Assembly: GCF_030160295.1 (NCBI RefSeq)
Contig: NZ_BSOB01000005.1
Location: forward strand, 186,001 to 250,000
Source of the DNA: Dyella acidisoli
GTDB taxonomy: Bacteria; Pseudomonadota; Gammaproteobacteria; Xanthomonadales; Rhodanobacteraceae
Direction of reading: 5' to 3'
DNA: 64,000 nucleotides
The position numbers were made by a program, and so were the translations under genes. This document shows positions 4,878 to 21,749 of the stretch, piece by piece (the first letter of the stretch is position 1; each line of letters begins with the position of its first letter). Under the pieces are notes generated by a model, which saw nothing but the letters and a program-made list of their open reading frames with translations, searched no databases and had not been told where the DNA came from.

Positions 4878-5891
4878 TTACGCTGAGACAAAGGATTTAC
4901 TCGCCAAGACGCCATAAGCTGACGCGTCCACCTTCAACATTCCATCGCCGTGCACAATCACCGACAGAGGGTCTGACAACTCGCCGATAAACGCGCCATC
5001 CGTTTCGTTTTTCAGAAACGCCATGAAGTGCAAGGAACCATCGCGCGCGGGCATGACACGTCCTGCATAAAGCTTCCCAAGCGGATCGCCCACCAAAAAA
5101 TCGCCCGGCACCAAGTGCCACTCACCCAATGGATGATCGGCCATCAGGTAATGCGTGCCGGTCATGGGGTGCGACATGGCTGCGCTCGAATAATTCCAGT
5201 CAATCAAATTCGCAGCCGTGCAAAACAGGCAATACCAGCGTCCTTGCCATTTGAAAATCTGCGGTACTTCCAGATGCGCAAACACGCGTGAACGAAACAG
5301 CGGCGGCTGCAACGTCCATTGATGCAAGTCATCCGACGTGGCGTGGCCGATGACACCTCGGCCGATACTCGGCCCGCTCGGCTCGCGCGCGGTGAAGACC
5401 ATATGCCATCCACGACCATCGGGGTCGGGAAATACCCATGGATCGCGGCAGGCCTGCTCGTACCACACATTCTTGTCGAGCGTTTCGTAAAGCGTGTTGT
5501 CTGACAATTGCAATATCGGATTGCGGGGCGAGCGCTCCCAGCGATACAGATCCGGCGAAGAAGCCACGCCAATGCGCTGGATCAATCCTTCTTCTTCGCG
5601 GCTAGTGCCCGTATAGAACATCAGCCAGTGACCTTGAGGCGCCTGCACCACAGTTCCGGTCCAGGTGGTGTAGTCGTCCCACGCGGGCGACGCTGCCGGA
5701 CGCAACGCTTCCTCCACTTCCACCCAGTTCACCAAGTCTTCGGATATGGCGTGTCCGATCGAGACGTGCCAATGGCGTTTATTGGGATCGCCCAGCGACT
5801 TGGGTGCTTGCAGGAAGAACAGATGGGTTCGCCCGCCCTCCTGCGCGAACCAAAAATCCCAGACCCAACGATCATCGAGGCGAAACGCCAT
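4878..5891 (-). CDS. GH32/GH68-like five-bladed beta-propeller glycosidase (possible fructosidase)
   Basis: About 337 residues resembling the GH43/32/68 beta-propeller clan. The expected acidic triad can be placed: an N-terminal Asp in VWDFWF, the RDP motif in ACRDPWVF, and a Glu in LEVPQIF. The WDFW motif resembles GH68-type VWD more than the NDPNG of classic GH32. No signal peptide is seen, so it is probably cytoplasmic. I chose the ATG at 5891 (MAFRLDD); an in-frame TTG at 5930 is a possible longer start. It is divergent from the TBDR at 6196 and probably belongs to that uptake locus, which fits hydrolysis of a sucrose- or fructose-containing intermediate. Exact substrate unknown. Confidence 0.8.
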   Translation of the reverse strand: MAFRLDDRWVWDFWFAQEGGRTHLFFLQAPKSLGDPNKRHWHVSIGHAISEDLVNWVEVEEALRPAASPAWDDYTTWTGTVVQAPQGHWLMFYTGTSREEEGLIQRIGVASSPDLYRWERSPRNPILQLSDNTLYETLDKNVWYEQACRDPWVFPDPDGRGWHMVFTAREPSGPSIGRGVIGHATSDDLHQWTLQPPLFRSRVFAHLEVPQIFKWQGRWYCLFCTAANLIDWNYSSAAMSHPMTGTHYLMADHPLGEWHLVPGDFLVGDPLGKLYAGRVMPARDGSLHFMAFLKNETDGAFIGELSDPLSVIVHGDGMLKVDASAYGVLASKSFVSA

Positions 5892-6195
5892 GTGTGCTTG
5901 CTCAACAGGCGCGCGGATTGCGCGGCGCAAATATTACCTGTTAAGTGAATTATTTCCATGGACATCCTGCGAAAATGGGACTGATAAGGCTTTTCTCGTT
6001 GACGAGTGCGGCGCGCTATAGCTGATTTAATTGTCCATCTTCAATGTCTTATTAGGGACAAGATTCAGGCTAAACGGGACTTTTTCTCAGTCTCCCGCTC
6101 TGTCAACAATATGACACATGATGAGTGATATTTTTCCCCGGTCCGCGCCGTCGGCCCTGCCGCCCGGCCACCGCATCCGCACCTGGGAAAGAACC
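5892..6195. promoter_or_regulatory. Divergent promoter region between glycosidase and TBDR
   Basis: About 300 bp separate the two divergent starts. It contains an imperfect palindrome tgtcttattagggaca at 6045-6060, resembling motifs upstream of the two other TBDRs in this window. No separate gene is supported. Confidence 0.5.
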
Positions 6196-8952
6196 ATGCT
6201 CACCTATTCCGAACGCCAGCACGGCCGTCGGCTGTCTGTCCTGGCACTGGCCATCCTGACGGCCTTGCCGGCCATGAGCCGGGCCGATGACACCAACGCC
6301 CTGCCCGACCAAACCAAGGCGAAGACGTTGGCTAATGTGGAGGTCAATGGTCAGGTTGCCGCCAATGGCATCGCTATCGCCGCCAAACAGACGCAAGACC
6401 GCGTGATGGACGTGACCACCAGCGAGCAGATTCAGTCCTTGCCGAGCTTGAACATTCCGCAGGCCGTGCAGCGTGTGGCCGGTGTGTCCACCAGCTTCAA
6501 TTCCGACAACATCAACGGGCGCGACGAAGCACAGCAAATCGCCATCCGCGGCCTCGACGCCAGCTACAACAACATCACGCTCGACGGCGCACCGATGGCC
6601 ACCACCGATCGCGCCAGCCGCGGCGTGCGCACGGATCTCTTGCCTGCGTCGCTGGTGCAAGAAGTGGACGTGTACAAAACCTGGCAGCCGGACCAGGACC
6701 CTAATGCGGTCGGCGGCTCCATCAACGTGGTCACGCGCAGCGCGTTCGACAATCAAGGCCACACCTACGCAAGCGTTACTGCTGCACTAGGTCACGTGAG
6801 CGGCACGGGCAACGCGCTGTCCGCCGATGCGGGTCTGGCTCGCAAGGGTGACGCGGTGTTTAGCGCCACTTTCGGACCGAATCACACGCTGGGCTTCGTG
6901 CTCGCGGCCAACTACGAAAACCGCAATCTGTATTCGCTGGGCCACATGACCAGCGACAACATCTTCTACAACTACTACAACGCCAACGGCAGCAACGCCA
7001 ACAACCCCGGTATTGGCGGCAATAACTTCGGCAATGGCTATCCAGTGCCGCAGCAGAGCAAGTACTGGAGCTTTCCGGAAAACATGCAGCGCAAGGGCCT
7101 GGACGGCAAGCTCGAGGCGAAGTTTGCGCCGAACATGTATGGCTTCCTGTCATTCGGCGTCAACGATGAAGTCGTCCATTCGGAACGCAACGAGATCATC
7201 CTCGACGACAGCCGTTCCACCGGCACCAATCCGGTGCAGAACCAGACCGGGACCTCCGGTCAGTTCGCGCTCGGCGAATCGGAAATCGGCCGGCAGCAGG
7301 CGATGATCAAGCGCGAAGACAAATTCACGCAAAGCGGCTTCGACTGGCACGTCGATGACGACAAGGTGTTCTCGGCGCGCGCCTCGTACTCCGACGCCAG
7401 CGACTGGAACCCCTCTGCGCTCAACAAGTACGCGTACGGCAAGTTCAAGTACAACGGTGCTAACGGCGCGGTGCTCAACGGCACCCCGGGCCTCGCCATG
7501 GGCTACGACACCAGCGGTTTCCAGCCCGATTTCAGCATGACCCATCCGGCCAACTTCACCAACTTGAACAACTTCAACGCGGTGTACTGGCGCAACGACA
7601 ACATCCGCATCAGTGACAGTGTGGGCGATCTGAAGCTCGATTTCCGCCAGAACATGGACGCGGATGCGCACGGCTTCGGTTATGCCGCGGGTATCGACGG
7701 GCGCCGCCTGCGTCATCGCTACAACGAAAGTTACCAGCAGTTCGTACCCACTTCATCTGGGGATACGCTGGCCAGCGTCGGCACGGTATCCAGCGAACTG
7801 ATGCCAGGCACCAATGTGCCGTTTCTGTACATCAATCCAGATCTGGCGTGGGGGCAGCTCGCTACCAGTTCACGCGCCACCGCGTATGCCAGCAACGCCA
7901 ACAACAGCTTGCAGAGCAATTACTCACACACTGAAGACACCGCCGCGGCCTACCTGATGGGCACGTACAAGACCGATCGCCTGAGCGTGCTGATCGGCCT
8001 GCGCCAGGACGATACCTGGCTGTCGACCACCGGCAACGTGCGACAGGTGACTGGCAGCGTTACGCAATGGCAGCCGCAAACCAATCGCTCGCGCTATGAC
8101 TTCACCCTGCCTGCGGCTTCGCTGATCTACAACGCCACCGATGCGGTGCGCTTGAAGTTTGCAGCCGGCAAGACCATCGGCCGCCCCACCTACGACGATT
8201 ACGCGCCGAATACCACCTACAGCCAAAACACCGATGGCAGCGTAGGTATCACGCGCGGCAATCCCGCCATCAAGCCGCGCCTGTCGACCAACTTCGACAC
8301 GTCAGCGGAATGGTATCTGCCTTACGACAGCATGCTTTCGGCAGCCGTGTTCCACAAGCGCATTGCCGACGAAATCTATACCTTGAACAGTGTCGGCACC
8401 GTGTTCTTCGATGGTGCCAATCGCATCGCGGCGATCACGCAGCCGATGAATGCCTCGCGCTCCCAATTGAACGGTGCCGAGCTCAACTTTGTGCAGGGTT
8501 CGCTGGGCTGGTTGTCGCCATGGCTGAGTGGTGTCGGCTACAACGGCAATGTCACGTTCCTGCGTGGCCGCCTCGATGCACTTACCTCCTCCGGCGCGAC
8601 TCGACCGATCGACGGCCTGGTGAATCAACCTGGCCAGATCCGTAACTTCACCGTGTTCTACAACCAGGACGGATTCGGTGTAGATCTGGGTTACCACGGA
8701 ACCTCTCGCGCTTTGCGCCTGATCGACAGTGCACGGGCAAGCCAGGACGTGTACTGGAAAGCGCGCAAGGAAATCGACCTGCGCGTGCATCAGAACATCG
8801 GCAGCGACGTGCAAGCATTCTTCGAGATCGCCAACCTCACCCGCTCGCCGGTGACCAGCGCCACCGGGCCGGCGCATGATCTGTTGAAGGATACGTTTTC
8901 GATCGGGCGCACGTACTGGCTGGGAGTGAAGTACACGCCGCATTCGCTTTGA
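6196..8952 (+). CDS. TonB-dependent receptor (Xanthomonas/Caulobacter type)
   Basis: A 918-residue outer-membrane receptor. I placed the start at the ATG at 6196, preceded by GGGAAAG and followed by a clear signal peptide (RRLSVLALAILTALPAMSRA); the frame opens at 6118 but that extension is not signal-like. A plug domain spans about residues 50-190 (QSLPSLNIPQAVQRVAGV, IAIRGLDASYNN, DPNAVGGSINVVTR), then a 22-strand-type barrel with a terminal YWLGVKYT aromatic ending. Role inferred: TonB/ExbB/ExbD-driven import of a bulky substrate across the outer membrane for the operon that follows. It is divergent from the GH32/68-like gene and 105 bp ahead of the 2H phosphoesterase gene. Confidence 0.93.
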   Translation: MLTYSERQHGRRLSVLALAILTALPAMSRADDTNALPDQTKAKTLANVEVNGQVAANGIAIAAKQTQDRVMDVTTSEQIQSLPSLNIPQAVQRVAGVSTSFNSDNINGRDEAQQIAIRGLDASYNNITLDGAPMATTDRASRGVRTDLLPASLVQEVDVYKTWQPDQDPNAVGGSINVVTRSAFDNQGHTYASVTAALGHVSGTGNALSADAGLARKGDAVFSATFGPNHTLGFVLAANYENRNLYSLGHMTSDNIFYNYYNANGSNANNPGIGGNNFGNGYPVPQQSKYWSFPENMQRKGLDGKLEAKFAPNMYGFLSFGVNDEVVHSERNEIILDDSRSTGTNPVQNQTGTSGQFALGESEIGRQQAMIKREDKFTQSGFDWHVDDDKVFSARASYSDASDWNPSALNKYAYGKFKYNGANGAVLNGTPGLAMGYDTSGFQPDFSMTHPANFTNLNNFNAVYWRNDNIRISDSVGDLKLDFRQNMDADAHGFGYAAGIDGRRLRHRYNESYQQFVPTSSGDTLASVGTVSSELMPGTNVPFLYINPDLAWGQLATSSRATAYASNANNSLQSNYSHTEDTAAAYLMGTYKTDRLSVLIGLRQDDTWLSTTGNVRQVTGSVTQWQPQTNRSRYDFTLPAASLIYNATDAVRLKFAAGKTIGRPTYDDYAPNTTYSQNTDGSVGITRGNPAIKPRLSTNFDTSAEWYLPYDSMLSAAVFHKRIADEIYTLNSVGTVFFDGANRIAAITQPMNASRSQLNGAELNFVQGSLGWLSPWLSGVGYNGNVTFLRGRLDALTSSGATRPIDGLVNQPGQIRNFTVFYNQDGFGVDLGYHGTSRALRLIDSARASQDVYWKARKEIDLRVHQNIGSDVQAFFEIANLTRSPVTSATGPAHDLLKDTFSIGRTYWLGVKYTPHSL

Positions 8953-8968
8953 TACGCCATCTTTCAAT

Positions 8969-9000
8969 GCTGTCATTCGCGCGAAGGCGGGAATGACAGC
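8969..9000. terminator. Inverted-repeat hairpin after the TBDR
   Basis: Perfect 10-bp arms gctgtcattc/gaatgacagc enclose a 12-nt loop. The arm-loop pattern (tgtcattc, gcgaaggcg, gaatgaca) looks like the dispersed REP-type hairpins common in Xanthomonadales intergenic DNA. It lacks a T-run, so it may attenuate or stabilise the TBDR message rather than terminate it. Confidence 0.6.
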
Positions 9001-9057
9001 CAGGAAGGATCACGCTTCCGGAAGATGGAAGGTACTCCCGATGACTGAAATCAATCC

Positions 9058-9768
9058 ATGCTCAGCAAATACCACCAGCCCCTGACCCATCTGAATCAAA
9101 AATTCGACGCACACGGCAACGTGCTGCGCTTTCCTGGCAACACGCTGATCTGCCACTTGCCTCTGTTCACGCCGCTGTCGAATGCCCTCACTGCGGTGCG
9201 AGATCGCATCAAGGCCGCGCCGCACGCCGACTGTCTGGCAATGCTGCCGCCAGAGAGCTATCACATGACGGTGTTCGAGGGTGTCAACGATCAGAATCGC
9301 ACACGTGAGCGCTGGCCGGAGGAACTGCCGCTCAACGTGACGCTGGCCGAATGCACGCGTCACATGGCGAACAAGCTGCAGACGTTCGATCTTGGTATCG
9401 ATCTACCGCTGCGCATGAAACTGGCCGAACCCGCCGAGCAATTGATGATCGGGGCGATGTCCCTGGTGCCTGCCGATGCCGAAGAAGCGCACAAGCTGCG
9501 CGATCTGCGCGATCGTCTCGCCACGCACCTAGGCTTTCGCACCCCTTGGCACGACAGCTATACGTTCCACATGACGCATTCCTATCTCATCCAATCGATG
9601 AGCCTGGAGGCGATCAAGCAAGCGCTGGCCTTGCAAAGCGAGCTATATGCCGAATGGGTGGCGCCGGCGGGAACGATCACGCTCGGCGCACCGGAGTTCT
9701 GCACCTTCATTGACATGCAGGCCTTCGACAATCTGTTCTTCTTGCGCCGGCAGGAGCGCCCTGCATGA
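9058..9768 (+). CDS. DUF1868-type 2H phosphoesterase (2'-5' RNA ligase-like fold)
   Basis: A 236-residue cytoplasmic protein with the two H-x-T signatures that define 2H phosphoesterases: HMT at about residue 69 (SYHMTVFEG) and HMT at about residue 171 (YTFHMTHSYL). Family knowledge: these enzymes open cyclic phosphodiesters or cleave 2',5'-bonds; DUF1868 members have no firm substrate. Its TGA overlaps the ATG of the binding-protein gene (ATGATG at 9765), so it is translationally coupled to an ABC importer. That setting suggests action on an imported (possibly cyclic) phosphodiester rather than on RNA. The substrate is inference only. Confidence 0.8.
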   Translation: MLSKYHQPLTHLNQKFDAHGNVLRFPGNTLICHLPLFTPLSNALTAVRDRIKAAPHADCLAMLPPESYHMTVFEGVNDQNRTRERWPEELPLNVTLAECTRHMANKLQTFDLGIDLPLRMKLAEPAEQLMIGAMSLVPADAEEAHKLRDLRDRLATHLGFRTPWHDSYTFHMTHSYLIQSMSLEAIKQALALQSELYAEWVAPAGTITLGAPEFCTFIDMQAFDNLFFLRRQERPA

Positions 9769-11099
9769 TGTTGCGTGCCGCCCCGTGGATCGCCTGGATG
9801 CTGTCGGCATGCATTGCCGTGCTGCCAGCGATCACGCGCGCGTCAGCGTTCGATTTCTGGTACGCGCATGGCGGCATCTACGCACAAACCATCGACGAGC
9901 TGTGTGCCGGTTTCAATCAGGCCCATCCCCAGGATCACGTGCGCTGCCTGCCGCAAGGCACTTACGAACAAACCCTGCGCAAGGCCGTCGCTGCCTACCG
10001 TGCCGGCCGGCAACCTGCGGTGGTTGAGATCTACGACGTCGGCACCGCCGACATGATGCGCAGCGGCGCTATCTATCCGGTGGATGCGCTGATGCAAGAC
10101 ACCGGACATGCCAGCGACGATACGGACTATCTGGACAGCATTCGCCGTTTCTACGCGATGGAAAACGGGCACCTACTGTCGCAACCGTTCAGCGCATCCA
10201 CGCTGGTGCTGTATGCCAACCGGCGCAAGCTTGCGGCGGCCGGTGTGACTCGCCTGCCGCAAACCTGGGAAGACTTCGACCAGGCGCTACAGGCACTCAA
10301 GACGCACGGCGAAAACTGCCCGGCCGTGGCCGATTACACGCCGTGGAAAATGCTCGAGCAGATCAATGCCGTGCAAGGTGCACCCATCGCCAGCGCGGCC
10401 AACGGCCACGACGGCCTGCAGGCGCGCTACGTGTTCGCTCATGGCATCCATCGCCGCTATATGCACGATGTGGCGCGCTGGCATGCACAGGGTTTGCTGC
10501 TGCCGGCCATCCTGACGCACGCCAACGATCAAACGCTGGCGTTCGCCGACGGCGAATGCGCGATGGTGATCGACGCCACCGGCGCTTATGCGATCGTCGC
10601 GAAAGCCGGCATCGTCGATACCGAGATCGGCTCCCTGCCGGTGTACGCAGACACTACACGCTATGGCAATACGATCGGCGGCTCGTCGCTGTGGGTGTTC
10701 AAAGGACAAGACCCATCCGTCTATCCGGCCGTGGCACGGTTTCTCGCCTATCTGCGCGAACCGAAGCAGCAGTTGCTGTTCGCGACGCGCACCGGTTATC
10801 TGCCGCTGACGCATGCCGCGGAAAAAGCACTTGCCAGCATGCCCACCACCACTGCACCGGACGCCATCCGCGTGGGGCTTGCATCCATGGAGCTGCCCGG
10901 CAACACCTATAACGCCGGCGTGCGGCTTGGCTTCGTGGCGCTGTTCCGACTGATCTGGCAGGAAGAAGTGCAACGTGCTCTGGGCGGCAAGGAAAGCATG
11001 GATGTTGCGCTCGATCACGTCCAGGCGCGCGGCAACCAACTGCTCGAACGCTTCGAGGCCACGTACCGTGCAGCAAAACCCATGGACAACGCACCATGA
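9765..11099 (+). CDS. ugpB: UgpB-like extracellular solute-binding protein
   Basis: 444 residues with an N-terminal signal peptide ending near ITRASA. The type-I binding-protein body contains TYEQTLRKAVAAYRAGRQPAV-like and VEIYDVGTADMM segments, closely resembling the glycerol-3-phosphate binder UgpB (GSYEQTL..., VYEVGTATMM). It delivers ligand in the periplasm to the permeases encoded directly downstream. Start and stop both overlap neighbours by 4 nt (ATGA). Because the neighbouring genes encode GDPD, 2H phosphoesterase and IMPase-family enzymes, the ligand may be glycerol-3-phosphate or a related sugar/polyol phosphodiester; specificity cannot be fixed from sequence alone. Confidence 0.88.
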   Translation: MMLRAAPWIAWMLSACIAVLPAITRASAFDFWYAHGGIYAQTIDELCAGFNQAHPQDHVRCLPQGTYEQTLRKAVAAYRAGRQPAVVEIYDVGTADMMRSGAIYPVDALMQDTGHASDDTDYLDSIRRFYAMENGHLLSQPFSASTLVLYANRRKLAAAGVTRLPQTWEDFDQALQALKTHGENCPAVADYTPWKMLEQINAVQGAPIASAANGHDGLQARYVFAHGIHRRYMHDVARWHAQGLLLPAILTHANDQTLAFADGECAMVIDATGAYAIVAKAGIVDTEIGSLPVYADTTRYGNTIGGSSLWVFKGQDPSVYPAVARFLAYLREPKQQLLFATRTGYLPLTHAAEKALASMPTTTAPDAIRVGLASMELPGNTYNAGVRLGFVALFRLIWQEEVQRALGGKESMDVALDHVQARGNQLLERFEATYRAAKPMDNAP

Positions 11100-11983
11100 A
11101 ATCGAGCGCACGCTTCCACGGTCGTTGGACACCGTTCGTGTTGGGCCTGCCACAGCTCATGCTGATCGTACTGTTCTTTTACTGGCCTACGCTGAAAGGC
11201 TGGTGGTGGTCGTGGCATCTGGAATGCCCGTTCGGGCATTGTTCGACCTTCGTCGGCTTCGGCAATTACGCGCGTGAACTGAAGGACGGCAGTTTCTATG
11301 CGTCGCTGCTGACCACGGCCGTGTTTTCCGCACTGAGCGTGTCGTTGTCCGTGCTTGTTGCGCTGCTGTTGGCCGGCATGGTGGAACTGCATCAACGAAG
11401 CGGCAAGCTGTTCCGCAATCTGCTGATCTGGCCTTATGCAGTGGCCGGTTCCGTGCTGGGCGTGATTCTCAAAGTGGCCGCCAGTCCGAGCATCGGCCTG
11501 ATGGGTTATCTGAACACGCTGTGGCCGGGCTTCTGGCAGCCGCATTTGAGCGGTGTGCAGGCGATGTCGATGGTGGTGTTCGCCTTTGCCTGGACGCAAA
11601 TTCCGTTCGATTTCATCGTGCTGGTAGCGGCACTGCGTTCGATTCCCACCGACTACATGGCCGCTGCGGCGATCGACGGCGCCGGCCCGCTGCGGCGCTT
11701 CATCGACATCCAGGTGCCGATGATCCGGCCGCAGTTGTTCTTTGTCGCCATGATCAATCTGATCGATTCCATCACCAACAGCTTCGCCATCATCGACACC
11801 ATGACGCAGGGCGGCCCCGGCGGTGCCACCGACATCCTGGCGTACAAGATTTATCGCGATGGCTTTATCGGGCTGGATCTATCCGGCTCGTCCGCGCTGT
11901 CGATGTTGCTGATGCTATTGGTGCTTGCCGTAAGCGCGGTGCAATTCGTGATGTTCGAACGTCAGGCGAGGCGGGAGGCATGA
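11096..11983 (+). CDS. ugpA: ABC transporter permease, UgpA-like
   Basis: A 295-residue inner-membrane permease with about six hydrophobic spans and the EAA-type coupling loop (AAAIDGAGPLRRFIDIQVP) that contacts the ATPase. It pairs with the downstream permease. The 4-nt ATGA overlaps on both sides indicate a single polycistron. MalF/UgpA family; function inferred from family and context. Confidence 0.9.
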   Translation: MKSSARFHGRWTPFVLGLPQLMLIVLFFYWPTLKGWWWSWHLECPFGHCSTFVGFGNYARELKDGSFYASLLTTAVFSALSVSLSVLVALLLAGMVELHQRSGKLFRNLLIWPYAVAGSVLGVILKVAASPSIGLMGYLNTLWPGFWQPHLSGVQAMSMVVFAFAWTQIPFDFIVLVAALRSIPTDYMAAAAIDGAGPLRRFIDIQVPMIRPQLFFVAMINLIDSITNSFAIIDTMTQGGPGGATDILAYKIYRDGFIGLDLSGSSALSMLLMLLVLAVSAVQFVMFERQARREA

Positions 11984-12876
11984 ACATGGTCGAACGCCAT
12001 CCCCTGCTGAAAGCCACGACGCTGGTATTGTTGATGTTGAGCCTGGTGTTCGCGCTAGGTCCGATCTACCTCGCGCTGTGCTCGGCTTCCGTAACGAGCC
12101 ACCAGATTTTGTTGCACGGCCTCGCCCTGCTCCCTGGCAAATATCTTTGGGAAAACCTCAGTGCAGTGCTGCATCGCGCAGATATCGGCCACATGCTGGT
12201 CAACAGCTGCGTGGTGTCGCTGATCGTGGTGGCCGGCAAACTTGCCTTGGCTTCCACCAGCGCGTTCGCCGCGGTGTATTTCCGCTCGCGCGTGCGGCAT
12301 CTGGTGTTCTGGGGCACGTTCATCACGCTGCTGCTGCCGCTCGAGGTGCGCATCGTGCCGACCTATGCGGTGGCGTCCGATCTGTTCGAGCCGCTGCGTA
12401 GCATCCTGACTCTTTTCACGGGCCTTCACCTGCACGCATCGCTCAATCTGCTGGACAGTTACACCGGCTTGTCGCTGCCGTTGATGGCGTCGGCCACCGG
12501 CACATTCCTGTTCCGCCAGTTCTATCTGACCGTGCCGGCAGAACTCTCCGAAGCCGCGCGCATGGACGGTGCCGGTCCAGTGCGCTTCTTCGTCGACATA
12601 CTCCTGCCGCTGTCGAAAGCAAATTTCGCAGCACTCGGTACCATCGTTTTTCTTACCACCTGGAAAGACTACATGTGGCCTCTCGTCGCCATCAGCCGGC
12701 CTGAGATGCGCACCATCTCGCTCGGCATCTCCACATTCTTGCCGACCGAAACGGGCCAGCCACCGGAATGGAACCTGGTGATGGCCGCGGCGCTGATCGC
12801 GCTGGCGCCACCCCTGGTGGTGATCGGCCTGACGCAACGCTGGTTCGTGCGCGGCGTAACGGGAGTGGGCAAATGA
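11980..12876 (+). CDS. ugpE: ABC transporter permease, UgpE-like
   Basis: A 298-residue inner-membrane permease of the MalG/UgpE type. The ATG at 11980 overlaps the upstream TGA; the open frame extends further 5' but that part lies inside ugpA. The coupling loop is visible as SEAARMDGAGPVRFFVDILLP. It ends with a 4-nt overlap onto the ATPase gene. It forms the translocation pore with the UgpA-like subunit. Confidence 0.9.
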   Translation: MNMVERHPLLKATTLVLLMLSLVFALGPIYLALCSASVTSHQILLHGLALLPGKYLWENLSAVLHRADIGHMLVNSCVVSLIVVAGKLALASTSAFAAVYFRSRVRHLVFWGTFITLLLPLEVRIVPTYAVASDLFEPLRSILTLFTGLHLHASLNLLDSYTGLSLPLMASATGTFLFRQFYLTVPAELSEAARMDGAGPVRFFVDILLPLSKANFAALGTIVFLTTWKDYMWPLVAISRPEMRTISLGISTFLPTETGQPPEWNLVMAAALIALAPPLVVIGLTQRWFVRGVTGVGK

Positions 12877-13952
12877 GCGGTGCAGCGATACAGGTGCGCG
12901 GCTTGTCCAAGCGTTACGGCGAGCGCACCGTGATGGAGCAGCTCGATATCGACTTTGCCACCGGGCAGTTCACCGTGGTGCTCGGCCCTTCCGGCTGCGG
13001 TAAATCCACCCTGCTCCGTGTGATCGCTGGTCTTGAAGAAGCCGATCAAGGCACGGTGAGCATCGGCGATGTCGACATGACGCGCACGCCACCGCAAAGC
13101 CGTGGCTGCGCGATGGTGTTCCAGAATTACGCGCTCTATCCACATATGAGCGTGCGCGACAACATCGGCTATGCGCTCAAGCTGGCCGGCCTGGATCGCG
13201 TCGAGCGCGAGCGCCGCATCGGCGAGGCCGCTGAGTTGCTGGGGTTGCGCGACCTGCTCGATCGCAAGCCCACGCAACTCTCCGGCGGTCAGCGCCAACG
13301 CGTAGCCATCGGCCGCGCGATCGCGCGTCGCCAGCGCGTGCTGCTGTTCGACGAACCGCTTTCCAATCTCGACGCCAAGCTGCGCCATGACATGCGCATG
13401 GAACTGCGCCGGCTGCACAACGAGATCGGCGCCACCACCATCTTCGTCACGCACGATCAGATGGAAGCGATGACGCTGGCCGATCGCGTCGTGTTGCTCA
13501 ACAAGGGTCAGGTCGAACAGGCCGGCACGCCCATGGCGCTTTACCACCAGCCGCGCACCACCTTCGTCGCCGGCTTCATCGGCACACCGCCGATGAACGT
13601 GCTGACGGCACACCACGAAGGCGACTACGCAACGATCGAGGATGGTGGCCGTCTGCATGTGGACCAACGCGCAAGCCAGCGAACGTCGATGATGATCGGC
13701 ATTCGCCCAGAAGCCATTGCGCTCGATGCACCGAACGGGATCATCGCCACCTTGGACGCGATCGAAGACCTTGGCAGCCATCGTGTGATCTATGTGCGCA
13801 TCGGTCGCCAGCGCGTCCTCGCCATCGACCATGGCCGGCGTCCGTTTCAACCGGGCGAAACGCTGAGCCTGGGATTTCCGCCCGATGCCATCTGCTGTTT
13901 CGATGCGGCCACTGGCGAACGCATGGCGCGCGTTGCAGAGGTTCAAGCATGA
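12873..13952 (+). CDS. ugpC: ABC transporter ATPase, UgpC/MsmK-like
   Basis: A 359-residue carbohydrate-type ATPase. Walker A GPSGCGKST, Q-loop VFQNYALYPHMSV, signature LSGGQRQRVAIGRA, Walker B VLLFDEPLSNLD and the His switch FVTHDQ are all intact. A TOBE/MOI-like regulatory region occupies about residues 240-359. The start ATG overlaps the upstream stop, and its own TGA overlaps the phosphatase start. Family knowledge: this class powers import of sugars and glycerol-3-phosphate-type substrates and may serve several importers. Confidence 0.93.
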   Translation: MSGAAIQVRGLSKRYGERTVMEQLDIDFATGQFTVVLGPSGCGKSTLLRVIAGLEEADQGTVSIGDVDMTRTPPQSRGCAMVFQNYALYPHMSVRDNIGYALKLAGLDRVERERRIGEAAELLGLRDLLDRKPTQLSGGQRQRVAIGRAIARRQRVLLFDEPLSNLDAKLRHDMRMELRRLHNEIGATTIFVTHDQMEAMTLADRVVLLNKGQVEQAGTPMALYHQPRTTFVAGFIGTPPMNVLTAHHEGDYATIEDGGRLHVDQRASQRTSMMIGIRPEAIALDAPNGIIATLDAIEDLGSHRVIYVRIGRQRVLAIDHGRRPFQPGETLSLGFPPDAICCFDAATGERMARVAEVQA

Positions 13953-14770
13953 CCAGCCTGCATGCCCGCCTGATGATGGCCACACACATCGCCGAACGCG
14001 GCGGCCACATCGCACGCGGCTATTTCGCCGCGCGCGAACAACTGGCCACTACCTGCAAGGGCCAAATGGATTTCGCCAGTGAAGCAGACACCGCAGTGGA
14101 ACGTATGCTGCGCGACGAACTGGCCACGCTCATCCCCGGCGAAGCCATCGTGGGGGAGGAATTGGGCGGCGAACTGGATGCACGCGCCTGGGTGCTCGAT
14201 CCCATCGATGGCACCAGCAATTTCCTGCGCGGCTCGCCGCTATGGGGTGTCGCCGTGGCGTATGTCGTCGATGGCGAGCCGGTCATCGGCGCCATTCGTT
14301 ACCCCGTGCTCGGCGTGACCGTAGCGGCCGCTACCGGTTTGGGCCTGTTCGTCGACGGCAAACCGGCCCCGCGCGCGATACCGTTTCCCGACGTACGTAT
14401 CGCCGCCATCGGCAGCAACGCTCGGTGGAACGTCACGCAAACATCCGCGCTGGAAGCACACCTGAGGCAACACCAGTGGTTCGCCACCGGGTATCGTTGC
14501 GCCAGCGTGGGCCTGGGCTTTGCAGCGCTGGGTTACGTGGACGGCTATTTCGAGGATCACACCCATGTGTGGGACATCGCCGCGGGCATGGTGCTCTGTC
14601 GCGAAGCCGGGTTGATCGTCGAGTCCGCCGCTTCCGTTGGTGCAGGCACGCTGCGTGTTGCCGCGGGTACGCCAGCGCTGATGCAAGTGGCGATGCCGTT
14701 CTGGTCCACGTTGCGAGCCAACTATCCTGGCCGGAGGGAGGATGGGGGTGAAGCCTCCATTTCGCCATGA
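13949..14770 (+). CDS. Inositol monophosphatase family phosphatase
   Basis: A 273-residue Mg-dependent phosphatase with the family signatures GEELGG (metal-binding Glu), DPIDGTSNF (metal/catalytic site) and VWDIAAGMVLCREAG (C-terminal Asp motif). Family members dephosphorylate inositol-1-phosphate, histidinol-phosphate, or sugar phosphates. It overlaps ugpC by 4 nt, so it is expressed with the importer. In context it would release phosphate from the phosphorylated half left after a phosphodiester is cleaved. Its exact substrate is unknown. Confidence 0.88.
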   Translation: MTSLHARLMMATHIAERGGHIARGYFAAREQLATTCKGQMDFASEADTAVERMLRDELATLIPGEAIVGEELGGELDARAWVLDPIDGTSNFLRGSPLWGVAVAYVVDGEPVIGAIRYPVLGVTVAAATGLGLFVDGKPAPRAIPFPDVRIAAIGSNARWNVTQTSALEAHLRQHQWFATGYRCASVGLGFAALGYVDGYFEDHTHVWDIAAGMVLCREAGLIVESAASVGAGTLRVAAGTPALMQVAMPFWSTLRANYPGRREDGGEASISP

Positions 14771-14816
14771 TGATCGCAACAGTTAGGTAACCGCTTTTGT
14801 GGAGCGCATTGGAGTC

Positions 14817-15983
14817 ATGAGTACGAATAAAAAGAAGCAAACGGGTGCTGCATCGAAACGCGCACAACCTAGGCGCGCGGGCAGCCTTGTGCTTTCTCCC
14901 AGCGAACGGATGATCCTGGATATCGTGCGCCGCCACAGCACGATCGCGCGCGCAGCCATTGCTGCCGAAACCGATCTAGCGCAGCAATCCGTGCATCGCC
15001 TGGTGGAACAACTGATCGAACGCGGGCTGCTTCGCGCCGGTGCCACCGTTCGGAACGGACGCGGCCAACCCAGTCCACGCATCGAGCTGGTGCGCGAAGC
15101 GGCCTATACCGCCGGCATATCTATCAACACCGATTCCATCACGCTCTGCCTGGCCGATTTGGGCTGCCATATTCTGGAAGAAGTGCACATCCGCACGCCT
15201 CCTACGCACCGCAAGGCATCGTTGACCGCCATCAGCGATGCGTTGGAGCGCATATTGACGCGCAATGGTGTACGGCGCGAACGGTTGATCGGTGTGGGCG
15301 TTGCGATTGCCGGCTTTTTTGTCGCCGGCCGCAGCCAGGTCAATGCATCCGAACCCCTGCAGGATTGGTCGCTGATCGATCTGGTGCCGATTCTGGAAGA
15401 AGCCTTCCATCTGCCGGTATGGCTGGAAAACAACGCCACCACCGCAGCCATCGGCGAGAGCCTGCTGGGCGCCGGACTGTGGGCGCAGAACTTCGCCTAC
15501 CTCGCTTTCAACTATGGTTTCGGCGCCGGCATCGTGCTCGGCGGTAAACCCTTGTTCGGCACGCACGGCAATGCGGGCGAACTCACCTTGTTTACGTCCG
15601 AGGAAGCGGCGCATCGCCCCACGCTGCGTTCGTTGATGGATGAGCTGAGAATGCACGGTGTCATGGTGGATTCGGTGGAGGATCTGCGCCAGCGTTTCGA
15701 TGCCACGTGGCCAGGTGTGGAAATGTGGATCCAGCGCAGCCTGCCCTCGCTCAATCGCACCATCAATGCGCTGGCCGGTTTGTTCGATCCGCAAGCGATC
15801 GTATTCGGCGGCCAGTTGCCGCTGCCGCTCGGTCGCATGCTGATGGACCGCGTGCGCTTTCTCGATATTCATCGTTACGGCATGGGCCCCGACCGGCCCA
15901 AGCTGGTACTGGCCGAAACCAATGGCGATGCGTCGGCGATCGGTGCCGCGCTCGTTCCGTTGAAGGAGCGGTTGTTCGAATAA
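14817..15983 (+). CDS. ROK-family transcriptional regulator
   Basis: 388 residues from the ATG at 14817; an in-frame GTG at 14799 is an alternative. An N-terminal winged helix (about residues 25-75, ERMILDIVRRHSTIARAAIA...QSVHRLVEQL) precedes a ROK sugar-binding domain (GVAIAGF, LENNATTAAIGE, NYGFGAGIVLGG, HGNAGEL). A clear kinase-type zinc motif (CxCGxxGC) is not seen, consistent with a repressor rather than a sugar kinase. It lies 46 nt after the phosphatase gene and 211 nt before the GDPD-pectinesterase gene. It probably senses a sugar or polyol intermediate and controls this locus. Confidence 0.87.
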   Translation: MSTNKKKQTGAASKRAQPRRAGSLVLSPSERMILDIVRRHSTIARAAIAAETDLAQQSVHRLVEQLIERGLLRAGATVRNGRGQPSPRIELVREAAYTAGISINTDSITLCLADLGCHILEEVHIRTPPTHRKASLTAISDALERILTRNGVRRERLIGVGVAIAGFFVAGRSQVNASEPLQDWSLIDLVPILEEAFHLPVWLENNATTAAIGESLLGAGLWAQNFAYLAFNYGFGAGIVLGGKPLFGTHGNAGELTLFTSEEAAHRPTLRSLMDELRMHGVMVDSVEDLRQRFDATWPGVEMWIQRSLPSLNRTINALAGLFDPQAIVFGGQLPLPLGRMLMDRVRFLDIHRYGMGPDRPKLVLAETNGDASAIGAALVPLKERLFE

Positions 15984-16194
15984 ACCAGAAAAGTTTTTCG
16001 CACTAAGCAAAGCACGTCTTCCGATGCGGCCCGCTGCGGGCACAAGGGCCGCTAGAAAACACTAAGACAAGGATTTCCTTTCGTTATCGAACTTCGACGC
16101 CTTGCGCCGATGCGGGTGTCTGCACGCCTCGTTTTCCCCTGTGCCCGATTGCACCTCAATCCAAACCATCCCATGCTCGACAGGAGTCTTTGCC

Positions 16195-19100
16195 GTGAAG
16201 TATCCGTTCAAACGAAAGCGCAGCGCATTGTTGGTAGCACAGGCCCTGGCCGTATTAATGGCCAGCGCCACTCTTCCCACCCACGCCCAAAGCGCAGGCC
16301 AATACAAGCTGACCGACAGTGCTACCCGAACCACCCTGATCAATCTTCTCAGTTTCCGTTTGCCAAATGGCACCACGCGAATCTCCGATTACGACAGCGC
16401 GCCCGTGATCGTGGCCGCGCATCGTGGCGCGGTGAATAGAGCCCATCCGGAAAACACGGTGGAGTCGGCGGTCAATACCTTGAACGCAGGCATTGAATCG
16501 ATGGAACTGGACGTCTATGAAACCAGTGACCATGTTCCCTACTTGATGCATGACAAGACGCTGTATCGCATGCTCAACCGCCCGGAATATTCCGACATCT
16601 ATCGTTGGGCCAGGGAGAACGGTGCTGCCAACCTGCGGACGCCCGCATGGAGCGACATTGAGAATGATTCGATATGCACCGGTGAAGATGGCTATGGCCA
16701 GACGGTCAACAGCCCCTTCTGCAACGACGGTACGGTCATGCCCCATATAAATCCCGCCACATTGGAGCAGGCTCTCTATGAACTTTACCAGGATAGCTAC
16801 GAAGGCCTGGTGTTCCTTGATCTGCGCGAATGGCAGAACGTGAGAGACGTGGCAGCGATCATGTCTCACGACTTGGCTGTTGGCGATGGCTATGGTGTGT
16901 GGGAAGCCAAGCATGTGGTGCTGAAGTTCCAGACCGCCTTGTTTGCCGGCCCGGAAGACTTCTATGAAAAAACCGCCGCTTACTACCAGTCGCTGTATAA
17001 CGCATCGTTAACGCAATCGGCGCTCGCGCAGTTATACGTCATGCCGACCTACACCTCCAATGGCGTGGCGAACCAGGACACCAACGGCAATACCACATGG
17101 GCCAGAACCGACTATCAAAATTGGCTGGTGTGGAATCTGCGGAACAATAACGGAAACGTCTACAACGTATTGTCCCCGCTGGTCGGTCTCAAAGCCTTCG
17201 GCGCCAGCCTAAACTACGGAAGCGACGATCTGTATACGGCCCTATGGCAGAGCGGCCGGAATATGGGCGTCTATATTCCCGAGACGCTGTGCACCATGAC
17301 CAATCCGAGCACGGCCAAATCCAACCTCTTTGGCGCCAATGGCACCTACTGGGAAGGTGGCATCTGCGGCCCGCTTGCGCCGGCCATGAATGCGAACGAA
17401 TGCGGCACCGCCAGCACCACGACGTTCGATCTCACCGGTCAAGGTTGTACCGACCATCGTCCGTTTGCTCAGTTTTGGCATGACAAGGCCCGCTTCGGTT
17501 TCATCATCACCGACAAACCGATCGAGACGCTCGACTACCTGATGCAGTTCCCCGGCCAGCGCCCAGGCTCGGCATGTCCCGGTTCTGTCGGCACCTGCCA
17601 CATCACAGTCACTCCGCCGCCAGTGCTGATCGTGGCGGCGGACGGTAGCGGCAATTACAAAACCATCAACGCGGCCGTGGCGGCCATGCCTGCCAGCGGC
17701 GGCGTGATCGAGATCAAGCCCGGCACCTATCACGAAAAAATCACTATCACGAAACCCAGCGTATCGTTGATCGGCCTGGGCCAGGATGCCTCCCAGGTGC
17801 TTATCACCCACGACGACTACGCGGCCAAGATCAACCCCGCCACTGGCAAAGCCATGAGCACCAGCGGCAGCTACACCCTCGCGGTGAGCGGCAACGACTT
17901 CTACGCCAGCAATCTCACCATCCAGAACACCGCCGATTACGAAGCGCCCAACTTCGAGAACAACTCGCAGGCAGTGGCGCTGTACACCACCGCCGATCGC
18001 GCCGTGTTCCGTGCGGTCATGCTGGAAGGTGGGCAGGACACCTTGTACGTCGGCAACGACAAGCGCGCTTATTTCAACAACTGCTATGTGGAAGGCTATG
18101 TCGATTACATCTTCGGCAACGGCAAGGCCGTGTTCGACAGCTGCCTGATCAAGACCAAGATCCACGGCAATCTGAGCGGCGAGGCGACCATTACCGCGCA
18201 GAGCAAGGCCAGTGCCGGTGAAGACAGCGGTTTCGTATTCCTCAATTCGCAGTTGTTGTTCGACAGTCCCTACATGACCAATGCATGGCTGGGACGTCCA
18301 TGGGGCGCATACGCCACTACCTATTTCGTCAACACCAAAATGGGCTCTCAAATAGAGCCGGCGGGCTGGATCGAATTCATTCCCGCTGCTTTTGCCCCGC
18401 CCGGCCAAGGCACCAACAACCTGCCCACCTCGACCTATCGCGAATACAACTCCTTCTACCCTGGCGCGAACGGCAACTGGACCGTGTTCAATCTCAGCCA
18501 ACGCGAAAGCACGTCGCCCAACAGCAACATAGCGCTCAGTTCCAATGACGCGGCCAACCTCCAGCCGGATATTTATCTTGCTGGCAGCGACAAGTGGGCT
18601 CCGACCAAGGTCTTTTACGGCGGCGACCATTCGAATCAGGCCTTGCCGATCCCGACACCCGCGCCGGGCGTGCCTACCGCACCGACCATCACCAGCAACG
18701 TCGCCGGCAATGGCAATGTGCAGGTAAGCTGGGCTGGCCAGCCCGCCAGTCCGGTCGAACAGGGCTACACCATCACTGCTACGCAGAACGGCAAAACATT
18801 TGGTCCGATCACACTGCCGCCTTATGCATCGACGGGTTATATCGACGGACTTGCCAACGGCACACCTGCCACCGTGACCGTGCGTGAATTCAACGCGCAG
18901 GGCAGTAGCGCTCCTTCGGCGTCTATCCAGGTCACACCGGTCGCACACGATCCGAGCGCACCGACCAACATCCAAACGAGCACATCGAGCACCAGCGCAA
19001 CGGTAACCCTCACTATTCAAAACCAAGGCATCCAACCCGTCTTCGGAGGCAGCGTTGCGCACGCGGGGATCTACACCTCCCTGTATGCAAGCCGGTCCGA

Positions 19101-19263
19101 CGCGTATGCAGGCAAAGCACTCGCAGGCACTAGCGCAGGCTTAACTACTAACAGTTGGACGTTCACCAACCTGCGCCCCAACACCACGTATTGGATGTCC
19201 CTGGCCGCCTACAACGGCTACTACAGCCCAACCGTCATCGCCTCGTTTACTACGAAGCCGTAA
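16195..19263 (+). CDS. Secreted fusion: glycerophosphodiester phosphodiesterase + pectin methylesterase (CE8) + two FN3-like domains
   Basis: 1022 residues from a GTG at 16195, preceded by AGGAG 8 nt upstream and followed by a signal peptide (KRKRSALLVAQALAVLMA...THA). The GDPD-type domain spans about 50-470: HRGAVNRAHPENT from residue 76, then ELDVYETSD and LMHDKTL. A complete pectin methylesterase domain spans about 480-800: GTYHEK, NSQAVAL, QDTLY (Asp about 615), DYIFG (Asp about 637) and LGRPW (Arg about 701), all expected active-site residues. Two FN3-like modules occupy about 824-1022. It is exported, so the phosphodiesterase acts in the periplasm or outside the cell. GDPD fused to pectinesterase is not an arrangement I recognise. 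It lies downstream of the Ugp-like operon and ROK regulator. Confidence 0.88.
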   Translation: MKYPFKRKRSALLVAQALAVLMASATLPTHAQSAGQYKLTDSATRTTLINLLSFRLPNGTTRISDYDSAPVIVAAHRGAVNRAHPENTVESAVNTLNAGIESMELDVYETSDHVPYLMHDKTLYRMLNRPEYSDIYRWARENGAANLRTPAWSDIENDSICTGEDGYGQTVNSPFCNDGTVMPHINPATLEQALYELYQDSYEGLVFLDLREWQNVRDVAAIMSHDLAVGDGYGVWEAKHVVLKFQTALFAGPEDFYEKTAAYYQSLYNASLTQSALAQLYVMPTYTSNGVANQDTNGNTTWARTDYQNWLVWNLRNNNGNVYNVLSPLVGLKAFGASLNYGSDDLYTALWQSGRNMGVYIPETLCTMTNPSTAKSNLFGANGTYWEGGICGPLAPAMNANECGTASTTTFDLTGQGCTDHRPFAQFWHDKARFGFIITDKPIETLDYLMQFPGQRPGSACPGSVGTCHITVTPPPVLIVAADGSGNYKTINAAVAAMPASGGVIEIKPGTYHEKITITKPSVSLIGLGQDASQVLITHDDYAAKINPATGKAMSTSGSYTLAVSGNDFYASNLTIQNTADYEAPNFENNSQAVALYTTADRAVFRAVMLEGGQDTLYVGNDKRAYFNNCYVEGYVDYIFGNGKAVFDSCLIKTKIHGNLSGEATITAQSKASAGEDSGFVFLNSQLLFDSPYMTNAWLGRPWGAYATTYFVNTKMGSQIEPAGWIEFIPAAFAPPGQGTNNLPTSTYREYNSFYPGANGNWTVFNLSQRESTSPNSNIALSSNDAANLQPDIYLAGSDKWAPTKVFYGGDHSNQALPIPTPAPGVPTAPTITSNVAGNGNVQVSWAGQPASPVEQGYTITATQNGKTFGPITLPPYASTGYIDGLANGTPATVTVREFNAQGSSAPSASIQVTPVAHDPSAPTNIQTSTSSTSATVTLTIQNQGIQPVFGGSVAHAGIYTSLYASRSDAYAGKALAGTSAGLTTNSWTFTNLRPNTTYWMSLAAYNGYYSPTVIASFTTKP

Positions 19264-20177: not shown

Positions 20178-21749
20178 CTAAAGCCGAGAGTTCGAAAACA
20201 AGCGAGTGCCCGGACCATACTGTAAGATCTCGATGCTTTGGCGCAGTACGGAGTAGCTTAGAGGTGCTCCTGTAGCATCATGCGCCTGCCCGCGCCAGAA
20301 CACTTGGCCAGCCGCTGGTATCGCGTCCTTGAACAGGCCATGGACCGTATTCTCATAGTCATAATCGCGCGCCCCCTTATCGTTCCAGACTGCAATCTGT
20401 CCGCCTGTGGGACCGTGCGGCCCCATGACACTTGCGGGGGTGCGGTTGTCCCAACCGTCGTATAAGGCATCACCACGCACACCCTTCGGATTAAAATAAT
20501 CTGGGCCAAAGGGAACGATGTACCAATCGCCATACGACTCGGTCCAACGAAAGCCGTGCTCACCCCAATTGAACTTGGCCTCATCGCCCCAGTTGATCCA
20601 GCGTTGGATCAGAAAAGATTTATCCAGGCCGATCGCGAAATCGGCGCTGCCCCACATCTCGACCTGCTTACCGCGCCACTGCAAAAAATGCCCTAGCTGA
20701 TTAAGGTAATTCACCTGTGAGACGATGCTGATGTCTTCCTGATTGACACTCGCTTCGTCGCCACCGATATGGATCACATCGGAGCGAAACCACGGCAGGA
20801 ATTCTGCGAATATGGACTCCACATAAGCCAGCGTCTGGGGTTTGCTGGGGTCCAACGTGCCGCCGGATGGAGTGCCGCCTTGATACAGTAAGTCTGGGCG
20901 GGCCGCACCAATGGCGCCGGCGTGACCGGGAGTGTCGATCTCCGGCACGATGCGCACCGCGTTGGCAGCGGCGATCTCTTCCAATCGATTCCAATCCTGC
21001 CGGGTGTAGTACTGGCCGTCGGACGGCAATAGATCGTGGAAGACTGGGTTGTCGCTCTTTAGGCGAAACGCCTTCATTGACCAACTGCGGTGGTCGTCGC
21101 TATTGACCTGGTCGTCCAGATGTAAATGCAACGTATTGAGCTTGTACCAGCCCATGAAGCGAATGTAGTCCTCCAGGAACGGTACGCTAGCAAACTTCCT
21201 GCCGACATCGAACATCACCGACCTCTCGCTGTAGCGCGGATAATCGAGTACGTGACCACGAGGAACGGAACGATGCTTGCCGGCACTTTGGCCATCCAGC
21301 ATCAGCATCTGCAACAGTGTGCGGCTGGCGTAGAACAGACCTGCGCGAGTGCGCGCACATAGCGACAAGCTGCGGCCAGCTTCCAGAACGTATCCTTCAT
21401 CGCCGATCAACGACGAATTGTCGCAAGACGCGAGACGCAGCGTGATATCTCCCTCTGAACCAGCTTTCCCTTGCCGAACTTGGGGACGGATATCGGACAC
21501 ATTCGCAAGCTCCCGAGCGAGCGCGGCTGCCAAGGGGCGAAGCATTTCAGCGTGAGAAGGATCGATCAGAATGCGGCTATGCTCATGCAACTCCCAGCGG
21601 CCCTGCCCGCCCTGCCAGCTTTGCAATGTCGGTATGACGACTGGCGCTGGATTTGGTGCCAGCATCGGTTTCGCAGTCGCACCAAAACACGTTATGGCGA
21701 GTCCGAGCCCAATAGTGCAGCCGAACCTTCTATGACGAATGCGCTTCAT
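20178..21749 (-). CDS. GH20 beta-N-acetylhexosaminidase, exported
   Basis: 523 residues with a signal peptide (GCTIGLGLAITCFGATA). A GH20b-type N-terminal domain (about 40-170) precedes the GH20 catalytic barrel: FDVGRKFASVPFLEDYIRFMGWYKLNTLHLHLDDQ pattern, EIDTPGHAG, and the catalytic HIGGDE pair (D331-E332). Substrate-assisted catalysis removes terminal GlcNAc or GalNAc from chitin oligomers, peptidoglycan fragments or glycans. It stands alone, tail-to-tail with the TBDR fragment. The C-terminus is short but the catalytic domain appears complete. Confidence 0.9.
   Translation of the reverse strand: MKRIRHRRFGCTIGLGLAITCFGATAKPMLAPNPAPVVIPTLQSWQGGQGRWELHEHSRILIDPSHAEMLRPLAAALARELANVSDIRPQVRQGKAGSEGDITLRLASCDNSSLIGDEGYVLEAGRSLSLCARTRAGLFYASRTLLQMLMLDGQSAGKHRSVPRGHVLDYPRYSERSVMFDVGRKFASVPFLEDYIRFMGWYKLNTLHLHLDDQVNSDDHRSWSMKAFRLKSDNPVFHDLLPSDGQYYTRQDWNRLEEIAAANAVRIVPEIDTPGHAGAIGAARPDLLYQGGTPSGGTLDPSKPQTLAYVESIFAEFLPWFRSDVIHIGGDEASVNQEDISIVSQVNYLNQLGHFLQWRGKQVEMWGSADFAIGLDKSFLIQRWINWGDEAKFNWGEHGFRWTESYGDWYIVPFGPDYFNPKGVRGDALYDGWDNRTPASVMGPHGPTGGQIAVWNDKGARDYDYENTVHGLFKDAIPAAGQVFWRGQAHDATGAPLSYSVLRQSIEILQYGPGTRLFSNSRL

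Follow-up and report, generated by a model that had tools for sequence, protein, structure and literature searches.

A candidate Ugp-dependent variant of the Xanthomonas xan sugar-phosphodiester module in Dyella acidisoli

Introduction

The xan cluster of Xanthomonas comprises xanR (ROK family), xanT (a TonB-dependent receptor, TBDR), xanP (a 2H phosphoesterase) and avrBs2, which encodes a GDPD-derived synthetase (Wang et al., Science 2025, PMC12807533). According to the available part of that report, AvrBs2 produces xanthosan in the host plant, and this cyclic digalactose phosphodiester is imported by XanT and hydrolysed by XanP to galactose-1-phosphate (Gal-1-P); an outer-membrane receptor and a diesterase are named, and no inner-membrane importer for the diester was found in the description. 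In the Agrobacterium acc locus, which serves agrocinopine use, the phosphodiesterase AccF and the phosphatase AccG act after import (PMC4526662). Here we describe a gene cluster at positions 4878-19263 of a 64,000-nucleotide stretch of the Dyella acidisoli genome (contig NZ_BSOB01000005.1, positions 186,001 to 250,000; "the window" denotes this whole stretch), for which the xan cluster is the best parallel. With moderate confidence we read it as a catabolic locus for an environmental sugar or polyol phosphodiester, perhaps plant-derived, and as a variant form of the xan uptake-and-utilisation module that depends on a Ugp importer.

Results

The locus begins with a GH32/68-like gene (clan GH-J) on the minus strand (4878..5930; PF00251 GH32N, 9.8e-19), followed on the plus strand by genes for a XanT-like TBDR (6118..8952; TIGR01782, 483 bits against a cut-off of 310), a XanP-like 2H phosphoesterase of PF08975/DUF1868 (9058..9768; 2H-phosphodiest, 1e-38), a UgpB-like substrate-binding protein (9765..11099; 263 bits, cut-off 411; 2.6e-65 to structure 4aq4), a UgpA-like permease (11096..11983; NF007852, 254.8 bits, below the cut-off of 335), a UgpE-like permease (11980..12876; NF008210, 267.8 bits, below 297), a UgpC-like ATPase (12873..13952; NF008653, 440.7 bits, over 432), an IMPase-family phosphatase (13949..14770; PF00459 Inositol_P, 5.2e-42, with DPIDGT and WDIA motifs), a XanR-like ROK-family regulator with a winged helix-turn-helix (14799..15983; PF00480, 2.6e-27; HTH_24) and a GDPD-pectinesterase-FN3 protein (16102..19263). 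These Pfam and NCBIfam profile assignments bear out the families named in the original prediction (TBDR, UgpBAEC-like, 2H, IMPase, GH32/68-like, ROK). The five 4-nt overlaps claimed for the importer operon are likewise present, at the successive junctions XanP/UgpB, UgpB/UgpA, UgpA/UgpE, UgpE/UgpC and UgpC/IMPase, provided that UgpE starts at ATG 11980 and UgpC at ATG 12873; other starts are possible, with an alternative ATG at 11986 for UgpE, whose profile score comes from a longer open reading frame beginning at 11521, and a longer UgpC frame beginning at 12768.

Shared with xan are the ROK regulator, the TBDR and a 2H protein with two HxT/S motifs in one cluster (HMT at residues 69-71 and 171-173 of the window protein), and an adjoining GDPD-type protein. 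The window locus differs in its additional UgpBAEC, IMPase and GH32/68-like genes, in a GDPD that is fused to a pectinesterase and seemingly Sec-exported, unlike AvrBs2, and in a 2H protein without a signal peptide, whereas the 11 Xanthomonas-type 2H proteins examined have a twin-arginine one. Those 11 loci (L035-L041 and L043-L046, from 13 loci of the genus taken as Xanthomonas) gave no BLAST hit to UgpB, UgpA, UgpE, UgpC, IMPase or GH32, some of them being cut by the contig end, L035 right after the 2H gene. TBDR hits occurred in eight of the 11, ROK hits in six by BLAST and seven with tblastn (L046 added), and a GDPD-motif frame in eight. With acc (PMC4526662) the window would share an ABC importer with a binding protein, an intracellular phosphodiesterase and phosphatase, a repressor and possibly a sucrose part; its importer is instead Ugp-like, its diesterase of the 2H fold and its regulator of the ROK family, it has a TBDR, and the two are likened by roles only.

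It had been predicted that the gene set would be conserved together in other genomes. When this was looked for, six further loci proved to have the core, three of them with an incomplete set. Genome contigs were scanned for 2H genes, giving 295 pattern stretches; 250 of these encode relatives, and the best 80 (79 loci, L047-L125) were used, so that weaker relatives fall outside the sample; together with the window, L029, L030 and L033-L046, this came to 97 2H genes at 96 loci, with L029/L067 and, by coordinates, L034/L072 as duplicates. A UgpB at least 50% identical to that of the window was found at seven of the 96 loci, namely the window and those of Dyella nitratireducens (L047), Dyella SG609 (L048), Rhodanobacter A1T4 (L049), Trinickia symbiotica (L050), Paraburkholderia podalyriae (L051) and Caballeronia (L052). 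ROK was present in all seven, GH32 and UgpC each in six, and IMPase and TBDR (the latter at least 50% identical) each in five, while GH32 was found in none of the remaining 89. The core, each gene of which occurs in five to seven of the seven loci, thereby spans Rhodanobacteraceae to Burkholderiaceae, and its recurrence is more than chance. Nine Trinickia genes are 54-69% identical to their window counterparts, the ROK protein is 69-90% identical across the six other loci, and TBDR copies are 57-77% identical in L048, L050, L051 and L052 (there in two frames); the TBDR gene is followed by an ExbB gene in Trinickia and a TonB gene in Paraburkholderia. PF08975 itself is sparse: of 233 genomes in the family 7 carry it, among them 2 of the 16 in the genus, and so do 19 of the 398 order genomes, which were sampled from a larger group. 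The closest 2H proteins among the matches listed are from Dyella nitratireducens (80% identical), Dyella sp. SG609 (78%) and Rhodanobacter sp. A1T4 (69%), and the sole solved relative at E up to 1 is the Atu0111 protein (PDB 2fsq, 1.8e-33), which by sequence belongs to the same family.

For phylogenetic analysis the 97 2H proteins were reduced to 63 (most L073-L125 rows were thinned by hand, L034 was dropped and a length filter was applied), and the seven Ugp-type proteins fell in one clade (support 100/97). A second clade adjoining UgpBAEC genes consisted of four Rhodobacter/Marivita-type loci of the Rhodobacterales (support 96/91), with 2H genes also lacking a signal; the supported branches of the tree force two changes. 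Xanthomonas-type enzymes formed a long-branched clade of their own, apart from the Ugp-type one. By an ad hoc rule of our own, rather than a trained predictor, signal peptides were called in 28 of 85 2H genes without nearby Ugp genes versus 1 of 12 with them (p = 0.10), the single exception being a second copy in L049 that lies beside its own ROK and TBDR genes. When the comparison was confined to the 28 2H genes that have a ROK or TBDR gene within 9 kb, a signal was called in none of the seven Ugp-type genes versus 17 of the 21 others (p = 0.0003). Counted among the non-Ugp genes without a called signal were those of L029, L067, L042 and L054; a twin-arginine-like stretch missed by the rule was seen by eye in L029 and L054, and none in L042. 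All 11 Xanthomonas-type 2H proteins start with an SRRxL-type (Tat-like) stretch followed by a hydrophobic run. This split, together with the SRRxL starts, suggests that the Xanthomonas-type 2H proteins are exported and that the Ugp-type protein is a cytosolic diesterase supplied by the importer.

The presence of xanT, xanP and xanR counterparts in one cluster raises the question whether the locus uses xanthosan, or a galactose phosphodiester close to it, that other bacteria have produced in plants; it would then be a scavenger of a private nutrient of Xanthomonas. The Gal-1-P yielded by XanP (PMC12807533) might be a substrate for an IMPase-type phosphatase. This would not fit well with the separate long-branched clade of the Xanthomonas-type 2H enzymes, with identities of just about 26-34% between the window 2H, TBDR and ROK proteins and those of the Xanthomonas type, or with the GH32/68-like enzyme, which would have no evident task on a digalactose diester, and we consider this reading improbable.

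Several observations touch the 2H family more widely. In Mesorhizobium helmanticense (L073, 4919-10654) a PF08975 gene shares a carbon-phosphorus (C-P) lyase operon with PhnH, PhnI and a pair of ABC ATPase genes, its product being possibly a stand-in for PhnP, and this setting suggests sugar cyclic phosphates as a further PF08975 substrate; many other Mesorhizobium loci have a similar pattern of ATPase hits, the Phn genes having been checked in L073 alone. Eighteen plasmid-borne records were retrieved at E up to 1e-15, all less than 60% identical, and the E. coli plasmids NZ_CP070073.1, NZ_OY754374.1, NZ_LR740760.1 and NZ_CP127317.1 carry DUF1868 genes whose products share about 31% identity with the window 2H protein. 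In Rhodanobacter A1T4 (L027/L049) two distinct 2H loci adjoin, one Ugp-type and one of the ROK/TBDR type, the signal-bearing 2H gene of the latter neighbouring a 626-aa frame without a Pfam match. The word DUF1868 was not found among open-access papers in the part of the matches listed.

All four Ugp subunits B, A, E and C are present, UgpC alone reaching its profile cut-off, and the window UgpB is the only full-length match to its model in the genome. In Phaeobacter UgpB, according to PMC12718374, the phosphate is held by Tyr64, Ser143, Ser266 and Tyr342, hydroxyl contacts are made by Glu88, Gly303 and Arg393, and the glycerol is clamped by Trp188 and Trp191, a pair that arose in binders of glycerol-1-phosphate and glycerol-3-phosphate (G3P) from proteins binding glycerophosphocholine or dinucleotides. 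When these residues were mapped by hand from an alignment to 4aq4 and a multiple alignment, the window pocket read Tyr67, Ser145, Ala271 and Tyr345, then Asp91, Gly305/306 and Arg387, and finally Tyr191 and Trp194. In this alignment the clamp pair is not complete, Trp188 being replaced by Tyr191 and the second Trp kept as Trp194; all seven Ugp-type UgpBs carry Tyr or Phe at the first position, and the Rhodobacter one carries Ser. Relative to UgpBAEC of E. coli and Phaeobacter (4aq4, 9lff), the four subunits and most pocket residues are shared, whereas Trp188 is changed to Tyr or Phe in the seven, Glu88 to Asp and, in three of the seven, Ser266 to Ala, and the window UgpB, UgpA and UgpE fall under the cut-offs of the known models. 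Such a pocket argues against a plain G3P site, and since most phosphate and hydroxyl contacts are kept, we predict that the modified site accommodates a larger phosphodiester more readily than G3P.

The importer might instead be an ordinary one for G3P or maltodextrin-type substrates, set among genes that have nothing to do with it, the 2H protein and IMPase being housekeeping enzymes. This would be compatible with the CUT1-type importer and with the 349 bits of UgpC against the MalK model, which lie below the cut-off of that model. It would not account for the 4-nt overlaps running through 2H-UgpBAEC-IMPase, for the co-conservation, for the independent pairing of Ugp and 2H genes in Rhodobacterales or for the half-lost Trp clamp, and there is little probability left in it.

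The GH32/68-like protein points to a sugar. It scored 68.5 bits with the GH32N model (cut-off 22.1) and 24.9 bits with GH68, below the cut-off of 27, and no other gene of the genome matched GH32N. The protein probably starts at M14 (MAFRL), and no signal peptide was seen by eye. Across six genomes the mean column identity is 73%, and Asp25, Asp163 and Glu221 are invariant in 6 homologues. A structure model (predicted local distance difference test score, pLDDT, 72; six sequences) retrieved GH32 or GH68 proteins in Foldseek rows 1-31, at TM-scores of 0.59-0.66 (query length) and 16-20% identity. Four IMPase-family members are encoded in the genome, and the one in the window scores lowest.

The IMPase in the operon could also be taken as a sign of glycerophosphodiester scavenging, with glycerophosphoinositol or a related lipid head group bound by UgpB in the way that M. 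tuberculosis UgpB binds glycerophosphocholine; the 2H protein would then open either the ligand or a cyclic inositol phosphate, and the IMPase would release free inositol. UgpB relatives do bind glycerophosphodiesters (PMC8603345 and PMC12718374), the Caballeronia operon contains a phospholipase C, and GDPD genes adjoin several of the loci. We nevertheless think it rather unlikely, in view of the GH32/68-like gene (six of the seven loci) and the ROK regulator, which indicate a sugar, of an extracellular GDPD that would be expected to destroy a glycerophosphodiester before import, and of the ten locus proteins scanned, among which no inositol-catabolic family other than IMPase was matched. A lead towards plant glycosylinositol phosphoceramides yielded only an unrelated review in a search of the open-access literature.

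The protein at 16102..19263 consists of a GDPD domain (residues 107-162 matched, 1.1e-9), a pectinesterase domain (510-791, 3.2e-55) and FN3. Its open reading frame begins at TTG 16102; the probable start is a GTG at about 16195, followed by an apparent Sec signal judged by eye. The protein has HRG/HD stretches, which we take to be the GDPD motif, and QDTL, DYIFG and LGRPW stretches, presumably pectinesterase motifs. The best structural matches of the GDPD part are GDPDs, from a weak model (pLDDT 62). The secreted GDPD of the original prediction thus stands as a GDPD with an export signal by eye, and not as a simple GDPD. Its architecture varies: the window, L047 and L049 have a GDPD-pectinesterase and L048 and L050 a stand-alone GDPD, a phospholipase C (PF04185/PF05506) lies inside the Caballeronia operon, and no exported partner was seen in L051, where the available contig stops 297 nt past the ROK gene. 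The GDPD domain of Trinickia is 29% identical to that of the window, against 54-69% for the nine other genes. Window-type GDPD domains occur in 4 of the 398 order genomes at E up to 1e-15; the fourth of these, from another genus of the order (G395), encodes a GDPD-pectinesterase-FN3 protein (L145, 9132-13229, minus strand) with no other part of the set, Ugp and 2H included, in the 32 kb around it. Of the loci L047-L125, 15 have ROK or TBDR hits, and 6 of these also have a GDPD, against 0 of the 64 others (p = 1.8e-5, kinship uncorrected; L065, one of the six, by BLAST only). The varying architecture, the low identity in Trinickia and the isolated copy in G395 place the GDPD partner outside the co-inherited core, probably as an exchangeable accessory.

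The GDPD was considered as the AccF counterpart and rejected as the favoured reading, because of its apparent export signal, its pectinesterase fusion, its variation between genomes and its occurrence in G395 without the set. The AccF-like role is better assigned to the 2H protein, because XanP, its relative in Xanthomonas, has been proven to hydrolyse a sugar phosphodiester (PMC12807533); by analogy the IMPase would take the AccG-like role. The agrocinopine-like logic originally proposed for phosphodiester use is in this way supported by the anatomy of the locus, with the diesterase moved from the GDPD to the 2H protein. An AvrBs2-type synthetase elsewhere in the genome was also sought and rejected: nothing exceeded the cut-off of NF041304 (best 52 and 26 bits versus 1000), the two matches span just positions 270-331 of 716, and the 26-bit one is the window's own GDPD. 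This was so despite a match over cut-off to the HrcV model, which matched at C22:39350-41347, C25:19837-21855 and C11:16580-18586, one of them over cut-off; the genome probably encodes a type III secretion system besides flagella.

A more speculative role for the exported GDPD would be that of a transesterase, not a hydrolase, as for AvrBs2 and the spider-venom phospholipases D, to which it is distantly related. It is a long shot that this protein makes an extracellular cyclic or oligomeric sugar phosphodiester from a plant or lipid phosphodiester, with uptake restricted to cells that have this TBDR and Ugp importer and re-opening by the cytosolic 2H protein; were it so, the product would be a self-made private nutrient that needs no injected protein.

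The divergent intergenic region between the GH32/68-like and TBDR genes (5892..6117) may act as promoter and operator. At its right end a block, AATATGACACA(T/C), is kept in four genomes, two of them without the TBDR there. A second block upstream of the probable GDPD start (16056..16132, plus strand) is also kept in four genomes, though L048 has a different, stand-alone GDPD at that place; elsewhere in the window's genome its next-best match is no better than chance (E 0.49), and it is a candidate regulatory element. No known RNA element reached the gathering threshold in window positions 1-26000. A search for 12-mers shared by 14 upstream regions gave weak candidates for a common ROK operator, at a level where, by our own estimate, chance alone would give about five matches between two regions, and no operator is claimed.

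Further along the window are a GH20-type hexosaminidase-like protein recognized by eye (20178-21749, minus strand), a pectate lyase-like protein (24659-25885, plus strand) about 5 kb past the GDPD-pectinesterase gene and, near the right end, a Tn3-family transposase and a phage-type integrase (57589-60582 and 61474-62784, plus strand).

Discussion

If the locus serves a sugar or polyol phosphodiester, the TBDR would carry the ligand over the outer membrane, as its family suggests, and UgpB would hold it via the phosphate site, with UgpA, UgpE and UgpC moving the intact diester to the cytoplasm. There the XanP-like 2H protein would cleave it, by a reaction like that proven for XanP, the operon IMPase would strip phosphate from the freed sugar or polyol phosphate, and the GH32/68-like enzyme would cut a fructosidic or related glycosidic part. 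The ROK protein might sense a product and control both the operon and the divergent gene. The ligand may be released or trimmed from some larger source by a secreted lipid- or diester-acting accessory, which is the GDPD-pectinesterase here and a plain GDPD or a phospholipase C in other genomes.

A number of observations weigh against this interpretation. The set is incomplete in three loci: Dyella nitratireducens lacks IMPase and TBDR, Rhodanobacter A1T4 lacks this TBDR, and a close UgpC, IMPase and GH32 are missing from Caballeronia, whose TBDR is split in two frames. The window 2H protein is merely 29-34% identical to the Xanthomonas-type ones, and a PF08975 gene also occurs in the C-P lyase operon of Mesorhizobium helmanticense, so that the family alone fixes no substrate. 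The phosphate-site serine of UgpB is alanine in three of the seven Ugp-type proteins, the window's included. Over all 97 2H genes the link between signal peptide and Ugp genes is not significant; the ROK/TBDR subset was picked after the data had been seen, its seven Ugp-type genes form one clade with kinship uncorrected, and the signal calls come from an ad hoc rule.

No title or abstract start describing the Ugp-type set was found in the open-access literature, and within that literature, examined at this level, the set appears to be an unreported variant of the known xan-type system. Ugp-type loci would represent a natural variant with an inner-membrane importer and a 2H protein without the Xanthomonas-type export signal, and UgpB, the 2H protein, IMPase and the GH32/68-like enzyme form a protein set whose ligands would identify the compound. 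If this interpretation is correct, sugar-phosphodiester nutrition would extend past Xanthomonas and Agrobacterium to soil and legume-associated bacteria, among the latter Trinickia and Paraburkholderia podalyriae, which we take to be legume-associated.

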